Assembly: GCA_012861695.1 (NCBI GenBank)
Contig: JAAOOA010000133.1
Coordinates: 398,501 to 462,500, forward strand
Origin: Trematomus loennbergii
Lineage: Eukaryota; Chordata; Actinopteri; Perciformes; Nototheniidae
DNA length: 64,000 bases
Reading direction: 5' to 3'
Positions 5,474 to 61,260 of the stretch are shown here, one piece after another; the stretch's first letter is position 1, and every line of letters starts with the position of its first letter. The notes beneath the pieces were generated by a model. It saw only the letters and a program-made list of their open reading frames with translations. It was not told the DNA's origin and ran no database searches. A program made the translations under genes and the position numbers.

Positions 5474-5767
5474 TTGTCACTACCCGATCTGCAGCCCTGC
5501 CCTATCTGCAGTGCGCATGTGCGAGATGGTCCGCCATTTTGGACAACTCCATACGGCAACTCTAATAGGACATTTGACGTCTAGACGGCTGCCCGATTTG
5601 CATCGTGCATGTGCGAGTCATAAACGTCTCAAATATCTATATACAAATATTTTGTTATTTTATTTTATTTGAAATAAAATGAAGGACATTCACAGTTAAT
5701 GTAATTAGATATAAATTATGAATGCCGTACATATTGCATACATTCACAGTCAATATTTCTTCAGTAT

Positions 5768-5940
5768 GTATGATAGCTGTCTAACAGAAGTTAAATCCAT
5801 TTCTCACTTATTCTGACAATGTACTTAACCCAATAAAAGGGGTTGAACAACTCTTTTTATTGGGTTCTTTTATTTGGTGTTAAGTACATTGTCAGAATAA
5901 GTGAGAAATGGATTTAACTTCTGTTAGACAGCTATCATAC
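5768..5940. repeat. Fold-back element with perfect 62-bp inverted repeat
   Basis: The left arm 5768-5829 (GTATGATAGCTGTCTAACAG...) is the exact reverse complement of 5879-5940. The 49-base spacer itself contains CCAATAAAA and TTTTATTGG, which extend the hairpin. Probably a short fold-back MITE; no clear target duplication was identified. Confidence 0.9.
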
Positions 5941-6142
5941 TGAATAAATACTGAATGTACTTTTTAGCATCACATGCTGATTATACAGGCTCTCCTGCAT
6001 CTGATCTCAAACAGGAAGTGGATAACCAAAGAGACAAAATAACTGAACCCTTCTTTTACCTGATGCTGGACCTGAAGTGAATTCAGTTCGGGGACAAATA
6101 CATGTTTATTTTACTTTAATTGTGACTTTTGTTTCCGTCCAG

Positions 6143-6256
6143 TTGAGGAAACTGATCAGCGACTTCTCCATCTTCATGTCAATCATGACCTTCGTGGGGC
6201 TCGACATGTTGCTGGGACTCGGGACCCCCAAACTGATCGTCCCCACAGAGTTTAAG
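6143..6256 (+). CDS. slc4a5: slc4a5-like exon D
   Basis: Acceptor CCGTCCAG before 6143, donor GTACAG at 6257; exactly 38 codons, phase 0. Reads [20 protein letters not shown] followed by [13 protein letters not shown]. The [10 protein letters not shown] wording differs from typical NBCe1 (GVDTPKLIVP) and supports an SLC4A5-like assignment. Confidence 0.93.
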
Positions 6257-6284
6257 GTACAGAAACTCTTTTACAATTAAGCAG

Positions 6285-6420
6285 AATCAGAAATCCTTAA
6301 TTTGTCACAAAGCAGGGAAATGTACGGTATTACAGCAAAGGCACAATGTACAGAAAAAGGCAAACAGAAGATAAGTAGACTAACACATTAAATATAAACA
6401 CTAATTCCACAGCACTCACT
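6285..6420. repeat. Retroposon-tail-like fragment
   Basis: AATCAGAAATCCTTAATTTG TCACAAAGC resembles the common teleost 'AATCAGAAATACTTTATT' LINE or SINE 3' tail. Related tails appear near 11700, 14612 and 45843. Too short to classify. Confidence 0.45.
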
Positions 6421-6476
6421 AAACAAATAACTCACCATGTTCAAATCAGAAACTCACCTTTTCAGAACTGCTTTTA

Positions 6477-35609: not shown

Positions 35610-35802
35610 TGGAAGTGGAAGGGGTTGGGCTACATGAGGTGAATTGAGCCAACACAAATACACAACAGGTGGGACTAAAAGATAATGAAAGTATAAAAAC
35701 AAAGACATTAATTAGGGCTGCAAAATGTCTCCCATTTAATGGTGATTAGATTTTTAAATGCTAACGCTTTTTTTCTGACTGTGTGTTTCCTGTTACCTGC
35801 AG

Positions 35803-36488
35803 ACGTCCAGCAGTGGTGGTGGTTAAAAAAGAGGTTCTCCCTGACCAGCAGGAGTGGAGCACCAGTCTGGACCAGGAGGACCCAGAGCCCCCCCACACAT
35901 TAAGCAGGAACAGGAGGAACCAGGATCAGTCAGGAGAGAGCAGCTTCAGGAGCTGGAGGAGGCTGATATCACCAAGTCCACTTTCACTCCTGACCCTGTG
36001 AAGAGTGAAGATGATGAAGAGAAACCTCAGTCCTCACAGCCTCATCAAAGACAAACTGAACACATGGAAACAGAAGCTGATGGAGAGGACTGTGAGGACC
36101 AGAACCAGCCAGGAACTCAGATCCAGAGAGCAGTTTACAACCAAAGACTGAGTACGCCACTGGAGACTCTTCTGAACCTGACACTGGAGACTCTTCTGAA
36201 CCTGACGCTGAAGAGAGTGCTGATTGGATGAGACCAAGACCTGCATCAGGCTCAAACTCACTGACAAATAGACATGAATCCGTCAGTGATTCAAGCCGTA
36301 GTGCTGTAAAGAAACCACACAGCTGCTCAGTCGGTAAGAAAGCTTTTTCTTAGAATATAAATGTAAAGACACACGTGAGAGTCCACACAGGAGAGGAAAT
36401 ATACAGCTGCAATGTTTGTGACAGAAGATTTAAATGGCATAGTGAATTCAAAAGACACAAGTGTGTTGGTCGTCAGCTGCTTCTGTAA
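35803..36488 (+). pseudogene. C2H2 zinc-finger gene, copy 1, exon 2 (broken)
   Basis: Acceptor TACCTGCAG. Encodes, across shifting frames, the acidic linker (QQEWSTSLDQEDPEPP, ADITKSTFTPDPVKSEDDEE, QTEHMETEADGEDC), two copies of the 8-aa GDSSEPDT repeat, then one damaged finger (KPHSCSVGKKAFS, second zinc Cys lost, then TAG) and a terminal finger-like YSCNVCDRRFKWHSEFKRHK. At least one base is lost at about 35812 and another near 35890-35930. With only one damaged finger it could not work as a normal DNA-binding protein, unless the missing fingers are an assembly collapse. Confidence 0.8.
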
Positions 36489-36856
36489 CTGAAGTTCCTC
36501 CTTATGGACACAAAAACATGGGACGGTTCCTTATATTGGACACACTTCCTCTTAATGGAAATGTTATGTCCAATTCAAGTGGCATTGGGATATTTTTTGT
36601 TTTAAATCCTCTGGAGCAGAGAGAGGAGCTGTGGATTATTGTTATTGATTAGTGCATCAGTGTTTCTTAGGGTCAAAAACACTAAACTCACAACTTAAAA
36701 TGAAAGCGTTTATTTAATAAAAGAGCACATGTTCAATGTGAAAAATGACAGTAGATATAGATTAGTTGCAATTTGGTTCCAAATTAAAACAATATGCATA
36801 TGCACTCGATCTGAGAACGGATTTTAATCAAATTCAATGTGTCTGTTACAGCCAAG
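36489..36856. other. Spacer between zinc-finger copy 1 and the next gene
   Basis: AT-rich with no duplicated counterpart after GGTCGTCAG. No feature supported except a CTGTTACAG acceptor-like end at 36843-36851, just before the next ATG. Confidence 0.4.
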
Positions 36857-37618
36857 ATGCTATCCGAATGCCTGCTGTGCGGGAAGTTCTACAAGGCTCT
36901 CAGTCAGCACCTCAAGAGCAATCACATGGTGCTTAATATAGAGGAGAGGAGCATCCTTCTAAAAATGGCAAACGGCAGGATCGTTATAAGGACCCAACCC
37001 TGTAACCTCTCCGGTGTGATTACCATGGGACAAGACTGGACCGCCATCTGGCCAAGGAACACAAGGAGCTCTCCCAGAAGGAGGCAGGCGTGGCCCTTCG
37101 TAATATAAAGCACAAAGTTGGACTGCAGATGCTCCGGGACCTCCGGCGGAGAAACCCAGAAATTGGAATGATTTCCACTTTGGATGAAGACGATGGAACA
37201 TTGGAGGAGTGGGGCAGATTGATACTCTCAAACGTGAGGTGAAGTCCCTGCGCTGCAAGCTGCAGAGGGTGCTAAAGAGAAAGCGGCAGAGGACCAAGGA
37301 AAAGGCTGTTTCCATTGGAGGGGAGGAGGAAACAGGAACATGTGTTTATAAAGGAACCGAACAAAGACGCAACCCCAAGTTCCTCCCGCAGCAGAAACCA
37401 AATTCCCTTATTCAGCAACACCCCAGTTGCCTCCTGCAGCAGAACCCCCCCAGTTCCCTCCTGCAGCACCCCCAATTCCCTTGCGTCTTGCCTCAATAAG
37501 CCGAAAGCTGCACGCAAGACCCCGGCTGGAGAAACGTCCTCTCCCACATTCTCCCCCTGGTCCTCTGGGTGGGGACAGGGGAATATCATGCGGAGAATAA
37601 CGCTCCCGAACATCATAG
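36857..37618 (+). CDS. Uncharacterised zinc-finger/coiled protein, exon 1 (frame-broken)
   Basis: From ATG at 36857: MLSECLLCGKFYKALSQHLK..H (C-x2-C...H-x4-H), then NIEERSILLKMANGRIVIRT, a second motif C-x4-C-DYHGTRLDRHLAKEH, then KHKVGLQMLRDLRRRNPEIG and STLDEDDGTLEE, a basic helix TLKREVKSLRCKLQRVLKRK, a Gln/Pro-rich stretch, and KAARKTPAGETSSPTFSP..MRRITLPNII. Donor GTAAGG at 37619. The frame shifts near 37010 (GG where GGG is expected), near 37205 and again before 37480. I recognise no named family with certainty; the paired zinc motifs and '..LSQHL' pattern suggest a nucleic-acid-binding protein of a multicopy fish family. Confidence 0.6.
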
Positions 37619-37702
37619 GTAAGGGTGTTGAATACGTTCAAATGCAGTTTCTGTAACATACGAGGTGTTGTCATTAAAGCATTATATTATGTCTCCTCAC
37701 AG

Positions 37703-37876
37703 AGGAATACCTAACGGCTTACCGGGAGCATCATGAGGGCATCGCTCCTAACATAAGGCAGAGCGAAAAAGCGCAGTCAAGGTCAGCCGGGTCATGACCT
37801 TCCTGATGTACATGGCGCATGGTAATACCCGGCTGTCGGATTGGGTATTCATTAATGACGTGAAGAGGATCCGTGG
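37703..37876 (+). CDS. Uncharacterised protein, exon 2
   Basis: Acceptor CTCACAG before 37703, donor GTGAGT at 37877. Reads EEYLTAYREHHEGIAPNIRQ, then after a one-base break in the A5 run near 37768, VSRVMTFLMYMAHGNTRLSD and WVFINDVKRIRG. It joins exon 1 in phase 1 (II-E-EY) and exon 3 in phase 2 (R-G-Y). The helical 'VMTFLMYM...WVFINDVKRIR' recalls SAM-like core-binding domains of tyrosine recombinases (inference, not certain). Confidence 0.65.
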
Positions 37877-37972
37877 GTGAGTAACAGCAACTACTGTCCA
37901 CAGTCTCAGCATCATTGTGTGTGTTCTCCACATTGACGCTCAATGTACTGATGCGTTTTCTTTCACCAACAG

Positions 37973-38222
37973 CTATTCCCGGAGCACAATAAAGTCGGGC
38001 AAGGCAGTCACAACTGCAGACCTTAAAAATGTGGCACAATTTGTAAAACACATGATGGACACACCGTGCCGGGGGAGCAGGCTCACTATGCCTGAAATGC
38101 GCACTATCCGCCGAGAGGTGAAGGCCGGCCTGAATGCCCTGAAGAAGCCGGTGCTTCTCCACCAAATTTGGGTGAAGCGGACCAAAAATAGAGGGTCTGC
38201 CGAGCCAGACGGACATCATTAA
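37973..38222 (+). CDS. Uncharacterised protein, exon 3 (C-terminus)
   Basis: Acceptor ACCAACAG before 37973; stop TAA 38220-38222. Reads YSRSTIKSGKAVTTADLKNV, AQFVKHMMDTPCRGSRLTMP and EMRTIRREVKAGLNALKKPV, then LLHQIWVKRTKNRG. This frame is intact. 'KAVTTADLKNVAQFVKHM' fits a helical DNA-binding fold. No tyrosine-recombinase catalytic R-H-R-Y set follows, so if related to a recombinase it is only the N-terminal domain. The protein is basic at its end. Confidence 0.7.
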
Positions 38223-38744
38223 TTCTTGTTTTAGTGTCTGTTCCTTTCTCCCAGACAGTTTCCAGTGAAGGCTTCTCAGATGGTTGTTAGCCAGGTTAAC
38301 CATTAAAGAGAGAACTGGAGGATTTCCCCAGAAATATGTCAAACTGTTGCTTTAATGTTTGGTCAGTAGGCCTGCTGATATATTTATGTGTTGGAGTTTA
38401 TCAGGGTTCACTCCTATGTTGTGCTCAGGTCAGTGTAATTTTGGTGTTGGGGTTATGGCTTTTCTTGTGTCATGTTTTGTTAAGAAAATAAATGAAAAAT
38501 GAAAATTCTAAGTGTCTTTATTTTGGCCAAAACAGTGAACAATTGACTTTTTACAGCTGAGGTTAAACTTCCATAATTAACTAAAATAATCATTTTTGTA
38601 GACATGCAGCATAAAGGCATAATAAACAGTTCAAGGGACACAAGGAGTTAAGGGAGGTTTGATAATAACAATAAATTACAATAAAATAAATAATGATCCC
38701 ACACAGAAAAAAAACACAATAAAACCTATAAAATACTTTTTTAC
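38223..38744. other. 3' flank of the uncharacterised gene
   Basis: AT-rich; AATAAATGAAAAATG at about 38488 may be its polyadenylation signal. No other feature. Confidence 0.45.
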
Positions 38745-38897
38745 TGTTGGTACTTTAACTATATGTTGATGCTTATACTTTTACTTGAGTAACATTTTGA
38801 ATGAAAGACTTGTACTTGTAACAGAGTATTCCTACACACTGGTACTTCTACTTTTACTCAAGTACAAGACCTGAGTTCTTCTTCCACCTCTGCTCCT
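38745..38897 (-). mobile_element. hAT-type MITE end (GTACTCAGATC family, minus)
   Basis: TTACTTGAGTAACATTTTGA to GTACAAGACCTGAGTTCTTC and CCACCTCTG, the reverse of the family end at 48366. Confidence 0.7.
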
Positions 38898-39042
38898 GAG
38901 GCACATCAAACATTAAAATAAAAGTTCTCACCTTGTTGAACACATCCTCAAACTGTGCGTCCGTCACACAGCCAAGCCTCCTCAGCACCTGAGTATCAAT
39001 AATGAAGATAATCAGAGGTGGGAAGTAACTAAGTACATTTAC

Positions 39043-39529
39043 TTAAAGGGGACCTATCATGCAAAATGCACTTTTGTACGTCTTCTACATGAATATGTGT
39101 CCCCGGTGTTCCAGGGAACTCACCAAGTGTCAGAAAACACAACCCTCTCTATTTTCCTCCATACCCAAATCTCTAAAAAAGGGGCTGCAACGGATCTGAT
39201 CAAAACTGATCCAGATTTGAACACTGTCCTGACGTCAGGACGGTGGCGCTACGGCTATTGGGCCAACTCCACCAATCAGGAGGAGACAGCCACGGCCATT
39301 GCCGTTCGAAAGACGCTGTAGTACATATGCCAGGCCTGTAGATGGTGCTGTTCTCACAGAATCAGCCCTTGCAAAAACAGAGCTAACATTTTTCAAATTG
39401 AGCGAAATGAGGCATGGCTAAAATGCATGATCTGTTTGGTATTTTGAAAAAAAAAAAGTATAAATATGCCTTATATAGGTATGGCCCTACACTATATTAT
39501 TCAAATATAGCATGATAGGTCCACTTTAA
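39043..39529 (+). mobile_element. TTAA-target MITE, copy 4
   Basis: TTAA at 39043-39046 and 39526-39529. Family ends intact, interior TGACGTCA present. A short deletion after GTTCGAAAG shortens the interior open frame. Confidence 0.88.
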
Positions 39530-39755
39530 GTATCATTTAGAGTTACTTGTACTTTACTTGAGTATCTCCCTTTTATGCTACTTTGTATTTCTTTTTTTCT
39601 ACAGTTCAGAGGTAACTGGTGTACTTTTACTCCACTAAATGTATTTAACACCTTTAGTTACTTTACAGATGTGGATGAATGATGTGAAATATAATCAAGT
39701 GTTAAATCAGACTTTAGTTCCACCTGGAGTAAATTCACAAGCTACCCTGCATTAT

Positions 39756-40425
39756 AGAGAGGTGAAGTCCCACCCATATACTTCCGACCCTGGGACCTTA
39801 TTTCGGAAAAAATTATGCATTGAAATCAATGGGGAGAGAAAGATTATCTTTCATCCTGTTTGAATTGTGCCACGAATTATACATATGATGTTTTTTAATC
39901 TTAAAAAATAATTTCCATGTCAAAAAAGTCACAGTTTGTCTTAAAACTGTTGAAATATAAGACGATGAAAAATACGCAACTAGAAAGACTACAAATCCCA
40001 GAATCCCGGTCCCGCATGCTGGCTCTTAGGAACCGACTAATCCCCTTGTGTGTATGCAGCTCTCAACATGCCCAGACTTTAGTGATTTTCACCTCTTTAA
40101 TACTTTTTGCCTCATTCTGAAAGAAAGAAGTGAAATGTGCCAACGTGACGGCCGTCTTGGTGTGTGGTGCGAGACGGGAGATGGAGTTCATTGAGCGCTT
40201 TCACACAAAAAAAACGTACTTCACAGTTTTACGACACATTTTTTTTTTTACTTGAATTATCTTTTAAATTGACAAACATCATGTGTGTAATTCGTGGAAC
40301 AATTCAAATGGAATCGAAAGATAATCTTTCTCTCTCCATTGACTTCAATACATAATTTTTCCGAAATAAGGTCCCATGGAGCTCCCCCGGAAAGGGAGGG
40401 ACTTTGCCTCTCTATACAAAGTCAT
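39756..40425 (+). mobile_element. DNA element with ~150-bp inverted ends
   Basis: Left GAGAGGTGAAGTCCCACCC...GGGACCTTATTTCGG pairs with right CCGAAATAAGGTCCCATGG...GACTTTGCCTCTC. TATA flanks both ends while the empty site at about 48644 has one (TGCAGTATACAAAG). A partial relative is at 44253-44500. Confidence 0.75.
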
Positions 40426-50280: not shown

Positions 50281-50827
50281 AACACACATATTTTAATATT
50301 TAGCAGGTTCCCTCATCTATAATCATTTATACAAGCGCAACTTTGAACATGTACAGCAGTAAAATGCAACATACACAATAATCAAGAAACCATAAATTAA
50401 ACACTGACGGAACATTTTACTGCACCATCATTACTTTTACATAAGAAGGTGCTGTAAATGTTCTGTTATACTTGTATACTTTTACTTAAATAAGGTTTGA
50501 ATGCAGGATTTTAATTTGTAACAGAGTATTTTCATTCTATACTGTAGGCGTAGTGTATCTGTGAACGATCCCAAATACAATTCATTGTTTACATTGCAGC
50601 TAGTGCTACGCCAGAAGAAAAAACCCTTTTTAACTGGAAGTGGAAAGGGTGGGCTACATGAGGTGAATTGAGCCAACAAAATACACAATAGGTGGGACTA
50701 AGAAAGAAATACGAAAATATAAAAACAAAGGCATTCATTAGGGCTGCAAAATGTCTCCCATTTTAATGGTGATTAGATTTTAAATGCTAACACTTAACAG
50801 TTTTTTCTGACTGTGTGTTTCCTGCAG

Positions 50828-51911
50828 ATGTCCAGCAGCTGGTGGTGGTTAAAGAAGAGGTTCTCCCTGACCAGCAGGATTGAGCACCAGTCTGACCAGG
50901 AGGACCCAGAGCCCCCCCCACACATTAAGCAGGAACAGGAGGAACTCAGGATCAGTCAGGAGAGAGAGCAGCTTCAGGAGCTGGGAGGCTGATATCACCA
51001 AGTCCACTTTCACTCCTGACCCTGTGAAGAGTGAAGATGATGAAGAGAAACCTCAGTCCTCACAGCCTCATCAAAGACAAACAGAAGCTGATGGAGATGA
51101 CTGTCGAGGACCAGAACCAGCCAGGAACTCAGATCCAGAGAGCAGTTTACAACCAAAGACTGAGGACGACACTGGAGACTCTTCTGAACCTGACACTGGA
51201 GACTCTTCTGAACCTGACACTGGAGACTCTTCTGAAACAGACGCTGAGACTCTTCTGAACCTGACACTGGAGACTCTTCTGAACCTGACGCTGGAGACTC
51301 TTCTGAACCCGACACTGGAGACTCTTCTGAACCTGACACTGGAGACTCTTCTGAACCTGACACTGAAGACAGTGCTGATTGGAAGGAGACCAGAGAACCT
51401 GCATCAGGCTCAAACTCACTGAAAAATAGACAAGAATCTGTCAGTGATTCAAGCCGTCGTGCTGTAAATAAACCATTTGGCTGCTCTGTGTGTACGAAAG
51501 CTTTTTCACAGAGTGGAGGTTTAAAGGAACACATGAAAATCCACACAGGAGAGAAACCACACAGCTGCTCAGTCTGTAAGAAAGCTTTTTCGCAGAGTGG
51601 AGGTTTAAAGGGACACATGAGAATCCACACAGGAGAGAAACCACACAGCTGCTCAGTCTGTAAGAAAGCTTTTTCACAGACTGGAAATGTAAAGACACAC
51701 ATGAGAGTCCACACAAGAGGTAATATACAGCTGCAATGTTTGTGACAAAAGATTTAAATGGTGTATTGACTTAAAAAAACACAAGTGTGTTGGTCGTCAG
51801 CCCTCACAGCTTAATGAAATTCAAACTGAGGATAACGGAGAGGCAGAGCCTCCAATCAGCAGCTCAGCTGAACACATGGAAACAGAAGCTGATGGAGAGG
51901 ACAATGAATAA
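50828..51911 (+). pseudogene. C2H2 zinc-finger gene, copy 2, exon 2 (frame-broken, 3 fingers)
   Basis: Acceptor CCTGCAG. Acidic linker: VQQLVVVKEEVLPDQQ then a break at GGATTGAGC (copy 3 has GGAGTGGAGC); ADITKSTFTPDPVKSEDDEE; an 8-aa GDSSEPDT repeat expanded to about eight copies (one with a lost base at 51246). Then three clean C2H2 fingers at 51482-51712 ([60 protein letters not shown]) with TGEKPHS linkers, then a break at ACAAGAGG and a fourth finger-like FKWCIDLKKHKCVG. Stop TAA 51909. Probably nuclear DNA-binding if the breaks are errors; otherwise a pseudogene. Confidence 0.85.
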
Positions 51912-59995: not shown

Positions 59996-60306
59996 ATTAC
60001 CATTCTATAGGCGTAGTGTAGCTGTGAACGATCCCAAATACAATTCATTGTTTACATTGCAGCTAGTGCTAAACCAGAAGAAAAACCCTTTTTCATTTTT
60101 AACTGGAAGTGGAATGGGGCTGGGCTACGTGAGGTGAATTGAGCCAACAAAAATACACAATAGGTGGGACTAAGAAAGATAATATTAAAGTATAAAAACA
60201 AAGGCATTATTAGGGCTGAAAATGTCTCCCGTTTTAATGGTGATTAGATTTTTAAATGCTAACACTTAACAGATTTTTCTGACTGTGTGTTTCCTGTTTC
60301 CTGCAG

Positions 60307-61260
<954 letters not shown>

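Follow-up and report, generated by a model that had tools for sequence, protein, structure and literature searches.

A putatively domesticated tyrosine recombinase gene without its catalytic domain in the Antarctic fish Trematomus loennbergii

The window analysed here is a 64,000-nucleotide stretch of Trematomus loennbergii contig JAAOOA010000133.1 (C133:398501-462500, forward strand) in assembly GCA_012861695.1, all 1,208,474,268 bases and 3566 contigs of which were searched. Its positions 36857–38222 hold a three-exon gene with GT-AG introns that combines a pair of zinc motifs with a coiled coil, a linker region and a helical domain. Judged by homology, this gene is derived from a family of mobile elements that encode a tyrosine recombinase (YR), and its domestication is plausible, given a same-ended open protein predicted in a second species and two close places in this genome. 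We therefore read it, with moderate confidence, as a recently domesticated, low-copy DNA-binding protein that arose from the front part of a fish YR transposon's recombinase and was truncated before the catalytic domain.

Homology to a family of tyrosine recombinases

Most of the relatives sampled in the same genome are intronless, and many are open for close to 900 amino acids and include a YR catalytic domain. With the exon 3 protein as query, 43 of the 150 matches scored (of 906 candidates) lay in open frames of 855–944 amino acids by hand count; the zinc motif 2 piece drew 929 candidates, of which 150 were scored. In P0005 (912 amino acids, locus L070), residues 7–131 and 401–599 cover the zinc motifs and helical domain of the window gene by tblastn, and the protein then continues into a domain that the window gene is without. 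This contradicts the idea of a host zinc-finger gene with no transposon link, for which the adjoining zinc-finger gene copies and the C2H2-like motifs might speak; with zinc motifs and core-binding domain both homologous to many YR open frames, we regard that origin as practically impossible.

Two overlapping protein searches found 15 and 22 homologues. Four are unnamed JGI/ENA proteins 80–99% identical to P0005, and the others, all named uncharacterized, come from notothenioids, Fundulus, Xiphophorus, Poecilia, Melanotaenia, Brachyistius and Lates. Across an alignment of 15 proteins (A1, with several near-duplicates), all eight zinc ligand positions are invariant, as are R456, K488, R561, H586 and Y595, while the usual His three residues before R561 is Thr (T558) in 15 of 15; the boxes were assigned by eye and named after what we take to be the standard motifs (R, K, HxxR, H/W, Y). 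The window gene resembles the fish YR family (P0005; L070 and L071; notothenioid P0010–P0013) in having the zinc pair with all eight ligands, the coiled coil, the linker and the core-binding domain in the same order. It differs in that the family's proteins extend through a catalytic domain that bears R, K, TxxR, H and Y, and in that the family has many copies, those sampled in this genome being intronless except for one on contig C55.

The full-length homologue P0010 folds like XerA and Cre, with both the core-binding and the catalytic fold, and the helical domain of the window gene, which the first-pass annotation had called recombinase-like, aligns with the core-binding half of P0010. Pfam gave sub-threshold matches only for four pieces of the window gene, a weak Phage_integrase match below the cut-off for P0005 (E 0.032) and the same model in three of 15 relatives (best 0.026, none above the cut-off). 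Sequence searches of the PDB returned coiled-coil and other chance matches for A2 (E at least 0.32) and one match for P0005 (E 0.61), and in viral_contigs 21 stretches fitted a pattern of the family profile, with no relative among them.

Loss of the catalytic domain

DNA homology to the relatives stops at about 38216, just upstream of the stop codon at 38220–38222. The last residues, GSAEPDGHH, lie in a frame different from the family's LPSQ-containing continuation and are identical in the counterpart P0039 described below. When three catalytic regions were searched against the window and locus L069 by tblastn (E ≤ 10), only chance-level matches appeared apart from one 18-residue stretch (38185–38241, E 0.26), which is the last homology before about 38216 read in another frame and holds no catalytic residues. 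The window copy accordingly has no catalytic domain with which to act as a tyrosine recombinase, and the lack of catalytic residues noted at first pass is borne out.

The gene is laid out as follows (window coordinates):

36821..36856, + strand: 5' leader common to the element family; homology to other copies starts at 36821
36857..37618, + strand: exon 1, with two zinc motifs, coiled-coil helix and Pro/Ser/Gln linker; three frame breaks as assembled
36869..36925, + strand: zinc motif 1, C-x2-C-x9-H-x4-H
37001..37062, + strand: zinc motif 2, C-x4-C-x9-H-x4-H; a frame break inside it is absent from C227 and P0039
37212..37316, + strand: basic coiled-coil helix, equal to P0039 residues 120–154
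37619..37702, + strand: intron 1, GT..AG, at three genome places
37703..37876, + strand: exon 2, beginning of the YR core-binding domain, with a single frame break at about 37780
37877..37972, + strand: intron 2, GT..AG, at three genome places
37973..38222, + strand: exon 3, remaining core-binding domain, frame-shifted tail GSAEPDGHH and stop at 38220–38222
38216, + strand: approximate limit of the DNA homology shared with the full-length family; the catalytic domain, expected next, is missing

Within the leader, 36821–36847 is 100% identical to L003, L005 and L072 by blastn. The exon joins (I-I to E-E-Y, and R-G to Y) yield the residues of P0039 and agree with the intronless relatives. The exon coordinates and splice sites first proposed were right; the two zinc motifs, coiled helix, linker and helical domain listed with them are likewise all present. 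The window also holds three copies of a zinc-finger gene that carry a 24-bp tandem repeat (35703–36490, 50729–51801 and 60202–61140), of which only the first adjoins the YR-derived gene.

An open counterpart in Pagothenia borchgrevinki

A protein search with the read-through of the window gene (X at frame breaks) matched four proteins, the best of which, P0039, is hypothetical protein OYC64_003131 of Pagothenia borchgrevinki (397 amino acids, 84% identity to the read-through). This predicted protein, from one species, is an open counterpart of the same structure: it shares the length plan, the exon-join residues and the last residues of the window gene and has all eight zinc ligands. In contrast to the frame-broken window gene as assembled, it is open throughout, and its model has a helix at 116–154. 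The stop at 38220–38222 falls at the same place in P0039 and is thus a real end, and a shortened end common to two species is unlikely to be a sequencing error.

The two proteins differ at nine of 380 comparable residues (371 the same, 97.6% identity); this comparison leaves out 17 residues (155–170 and 257) and includes 25 in exon 2 that were matched by eye. The region around zinc motif 1 (residues 4–21) holds five of the nine differences. A stretch of 18 residues with that number arose somewhere in 0.15% of simulations, the place having been picked after seeing the data. The genome of this species (as T. borchgrevinki) is described as annotated by BRAKER3 with RNA-seq and zebrafish proteins, with a TSEBRA filter for supported genes, in PMC11708224. 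We infer that P0039 comes from that annotation, which makes its transcript support indirect. No published description of the gene was found in the literature listings searched, including under OYC64 and two LOC numbers.

Frame breaks, copy number and competing explanations

Several observations weigh against domestication. Compared with P0039, the window copy has four frame breaks as assembled (between 37003/37015, 37206/37212, 37316/37356 and 37779/37782); its exon 1 and exon 2 pieces stand in differing frames, and no single frame runs throughout. A second copy, on contig C227 (L069), is open over the first two of these breaks and has its own elsewhere, and the exon 2 break is common to both copies and absent from P0039. 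An open frame in the window's own genome, as expected of a domesticated gene, is thus found in neither copy as assembled. In addition, the tail is off the family's frame, and C55, the other intron-bearing copy, likewise shifts frame outside its introns. Finally, the structure-based search proposed in the first-pass annotation turned up no convincing PDB match when made with the truncated protein by itself, and YR entries were absent among the matches listed; the core-binding assignment therefore rests on homology to P0010.

The broken frames, the off-frame tail and the frame shift in C55 would suit a truncated relic, that is, an old intron-bearing element copy whose catalytic half was deleted and which is now drifting, P0039 being what a gene-finder made of this relic in a closely related species. 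We consider this a serious explanation, if a somewhat unlikely one, as P0039 is open for 397 residues with its eight zinc ligands intact and an identical end, and the exon 1 breaks differ between the window and C227, as assembly indels would. The two copies lie in a 4.7-kb block (window 35703–40347) that recurs on C227 with 98.4% identity, and C227 may carry a duplicate or the other haplotype. The blocks differ by 27 gap openings as against 13 mismatches, mostly concentrated in two stretches, a pattern suggesting that one contig or both were poorly polished; with gaps outnumbering mismatches, assembly indels are indicated, and these would account for the breaks private to one copy.

The genomic copy count that had been proposed bears on our preferred reading as well. 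Among 104 matches scored of 2094 candidates, close matches to P0039 (95% in exon 3) occur only on C133 and C227, both within the one 4.7-kb block, and elsewhere identity is at most about 54%. Unlike its parent element, then, the window gene is low-copy; the suggestion of a lineage-specific multicopy family fits the parent element and not the gene itself. The same count argues against an element-encoded short form, which would move with mobile or duplicated DNA and repress its own family without host selection, and the 344 bases past 38216 have no lengthy match to any other fetched copy. Other short derivatives that carry only the zinc pair do exist here (L041 and 18 further loci, 96–99% identical), but we judge such a short form very unlikely as an account of the window gene.

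These derivatives form a second repeat (L041–L060 except L055; C533, C64, C1338, C393, C150 and others). The 18 loci match L041 over 0.8–3.2 kb and hold frames of about 107–144 amino acids; the first motif 1 cysteine is altered in L041. The repeat is possibly a non-autonomous derivative.

Introns shared by diverged paralogues

Each intron sequence occurs at three genome places: the window, C227 and C55. Among fetched loci crossed by alignment, junction 2 (57 alignments) runs on without a break at 36 distinct places and is interrupted at those three, while junction 1 (55 alignments) is unbroken at 33; for the latter, four C55 alignments mis-scored as contiguous because they ran past the intron were removed by hand, and L021, being ambiguous, was not counted. 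Within its catalytic domain, C55 (L012) carries a further GT-AG insertion that turned up nowhere else, and on the 3' side C55 matches the 115-bp repeats lying downstream of the intronless element.

The window and C55 introns are 86–87% identical, whereas the exons have diverged to a dS of about 1.17 (dN 0.34). Four-fold sites differ at 25 of 46 (54%), as against 22 of 160 intron sites (14%) with the splice signals set aside (Fisher 6.6e-08). A tree of 29 sequences places C55 with the notothenioid proteins (99.9/100) and unites the remaining sampled genome copies with P0009 in one group (96/92); the window gene stands alone on a long branch whose placement is not fixed; three members of the P0009 group (L041, L055 and L061) are partial sequences whose intron status lies outside the counts above. 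Given this grouping, one intron loss in the P0009 group, or one gain in the others, suffices for the distribution of the introns but not for their sequence similarity. The introns are either under constraint or were transferred between paralogues at a later time.

Gene conversion was considered for the similar introns and is not supported: a runs test on three-way informative sites gave P = 0.16–0.91 with four donors, and L012-like sites showed no significant enrichment near the introns (Fisher 0.11–0.33). Nor does CpG decay explain the intron–exon contrast, as the difference persists without CpG sites. A search of 36500–38500 against Rfam gave no match at E ≤ 5, hence no known RNA family in the introns, and intron folding gave no z-score below -1.1. 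In viral_contigs the intron 2 pattern had one 18-base match, without wider similarity by eye. Read through, intron 1 is open for about 40 residues in C227 (L069 5331–5449), starting GKGVEYVT there and in C55 (L012 1150–1169); this might be a retained-intron form or chance.

The parent element compared with Cryptons and DUF3504 genes

Two element copies on different contigs have about 9.2 kb in common, with gaps, and hold one long YR frame and several tandem arrays; the 8 kb surrounding each of two copies held no long non-repeat frame other than the YR. One element pair showed no clear terminal repeats (best local end scores 20 direct and 16 inverted, uncalibrated), and the exact ends are uncertain. 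Tandem units of 115 bp, alike by eye and in the same orientation, lie on both sides of the YR gene (L081:87-457, L070:1418-1857) and are possible recombinase sites. Frames in a 141-bp tandem array of L070 (5599–6375 on the − strand, 5652–6464 on the + strand) scored for MLVIN_C (37.6 bits, cut-off 29.2) and Fic-like_C (27.0, cut-off 27), but these scores are sums in which no single stretch passes and look like repeat inflation.

The first-pass annotation had proposed a Crypton-like source. The likeness to Cryptons (CryptonA, F, I, S and V; PMC3212892, PMC5753468) is the use of a YR as transposase. Five other L070 frames, part of the frames in its 11 kb, had no Pfam match to a reverse transcriptase, the enzyme that would accompany the YR in a DIRS/Ngaro YR retrotransposon. 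On the other hand, the Crypton catalytic tetrad is named as R-H-R-Y (PMC3212892), whereas all 15 A1 proteins have R-T-R-Y by our own box assignment, with Thr where the tetrad has His. The paired N-terminal zinc motifs are a further difference, as they are not described for animal Cryptons in the portions of PMC3212892 and PMC5753468 consulted. Crypton membership of the parent family is thus not established.

Crypton-derived DUF3504 genes (KCTD1, KIAA1958, ZMYM2/3/4, QRICH1 and WOC) offer a second comparison. They too are host genes for which a YR origin and a role in binding DNA or protein have been proposed, and they are described as very old and as keeping a YR-like domain without most catalytic residues (PMC3212892). 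The window gene, unlike these, retains the front half, is without the catalytic domain and is seen in the window's genome and one notothenioid. DUF3504, for which Pfam presumably includes a model, was not among the matches of the four window pieces and P0005 (E ≤ 10) or of the 15 relatives (E ≤ 0.1).

Possible function and significance

If the gene is domesticated as we propose, it would be spliced, translated and expressed, its paired motifs would bind zinc and its coiled coil would mediate dimerisation. The zinc pair and the core-binding domain together could then bind DNA without cleaving it, and the host may have retained the protein as a DNA-binding regulator. Its likeliest target would be the binding sites of YR elements, which remain abundant in this genome, and there it may act as a competitive repressor. 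A YR that has lost its catalytic half is unable to cut, yet might still sit on recombination sites, so the most economical proposal is that it competes with the full-length enzyme. It might equally well act at other genes. The fuller scenario, in which a young truncated YR was retained in an Antarctic-fish lineage as a competitive repressor, with a fast-changing zinc-finger recognition helix and introns better conserved than exons between paralogues, strikes us as quite improbable as a whole.

The window gene retains the other half of the recombinase from that kept by DUF3504 genes. Should it be a young case of domestication, its parent elements are still multi-copy in the same genome, and direct tests could address which sites it binds, how it affects the element and how selection has acted on it. 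Should it be a relic, it would still mark a large YR family of percomorph fish that comprises members with and without introns and lies below the Pfam cut-off in the 15 relatives scanned.
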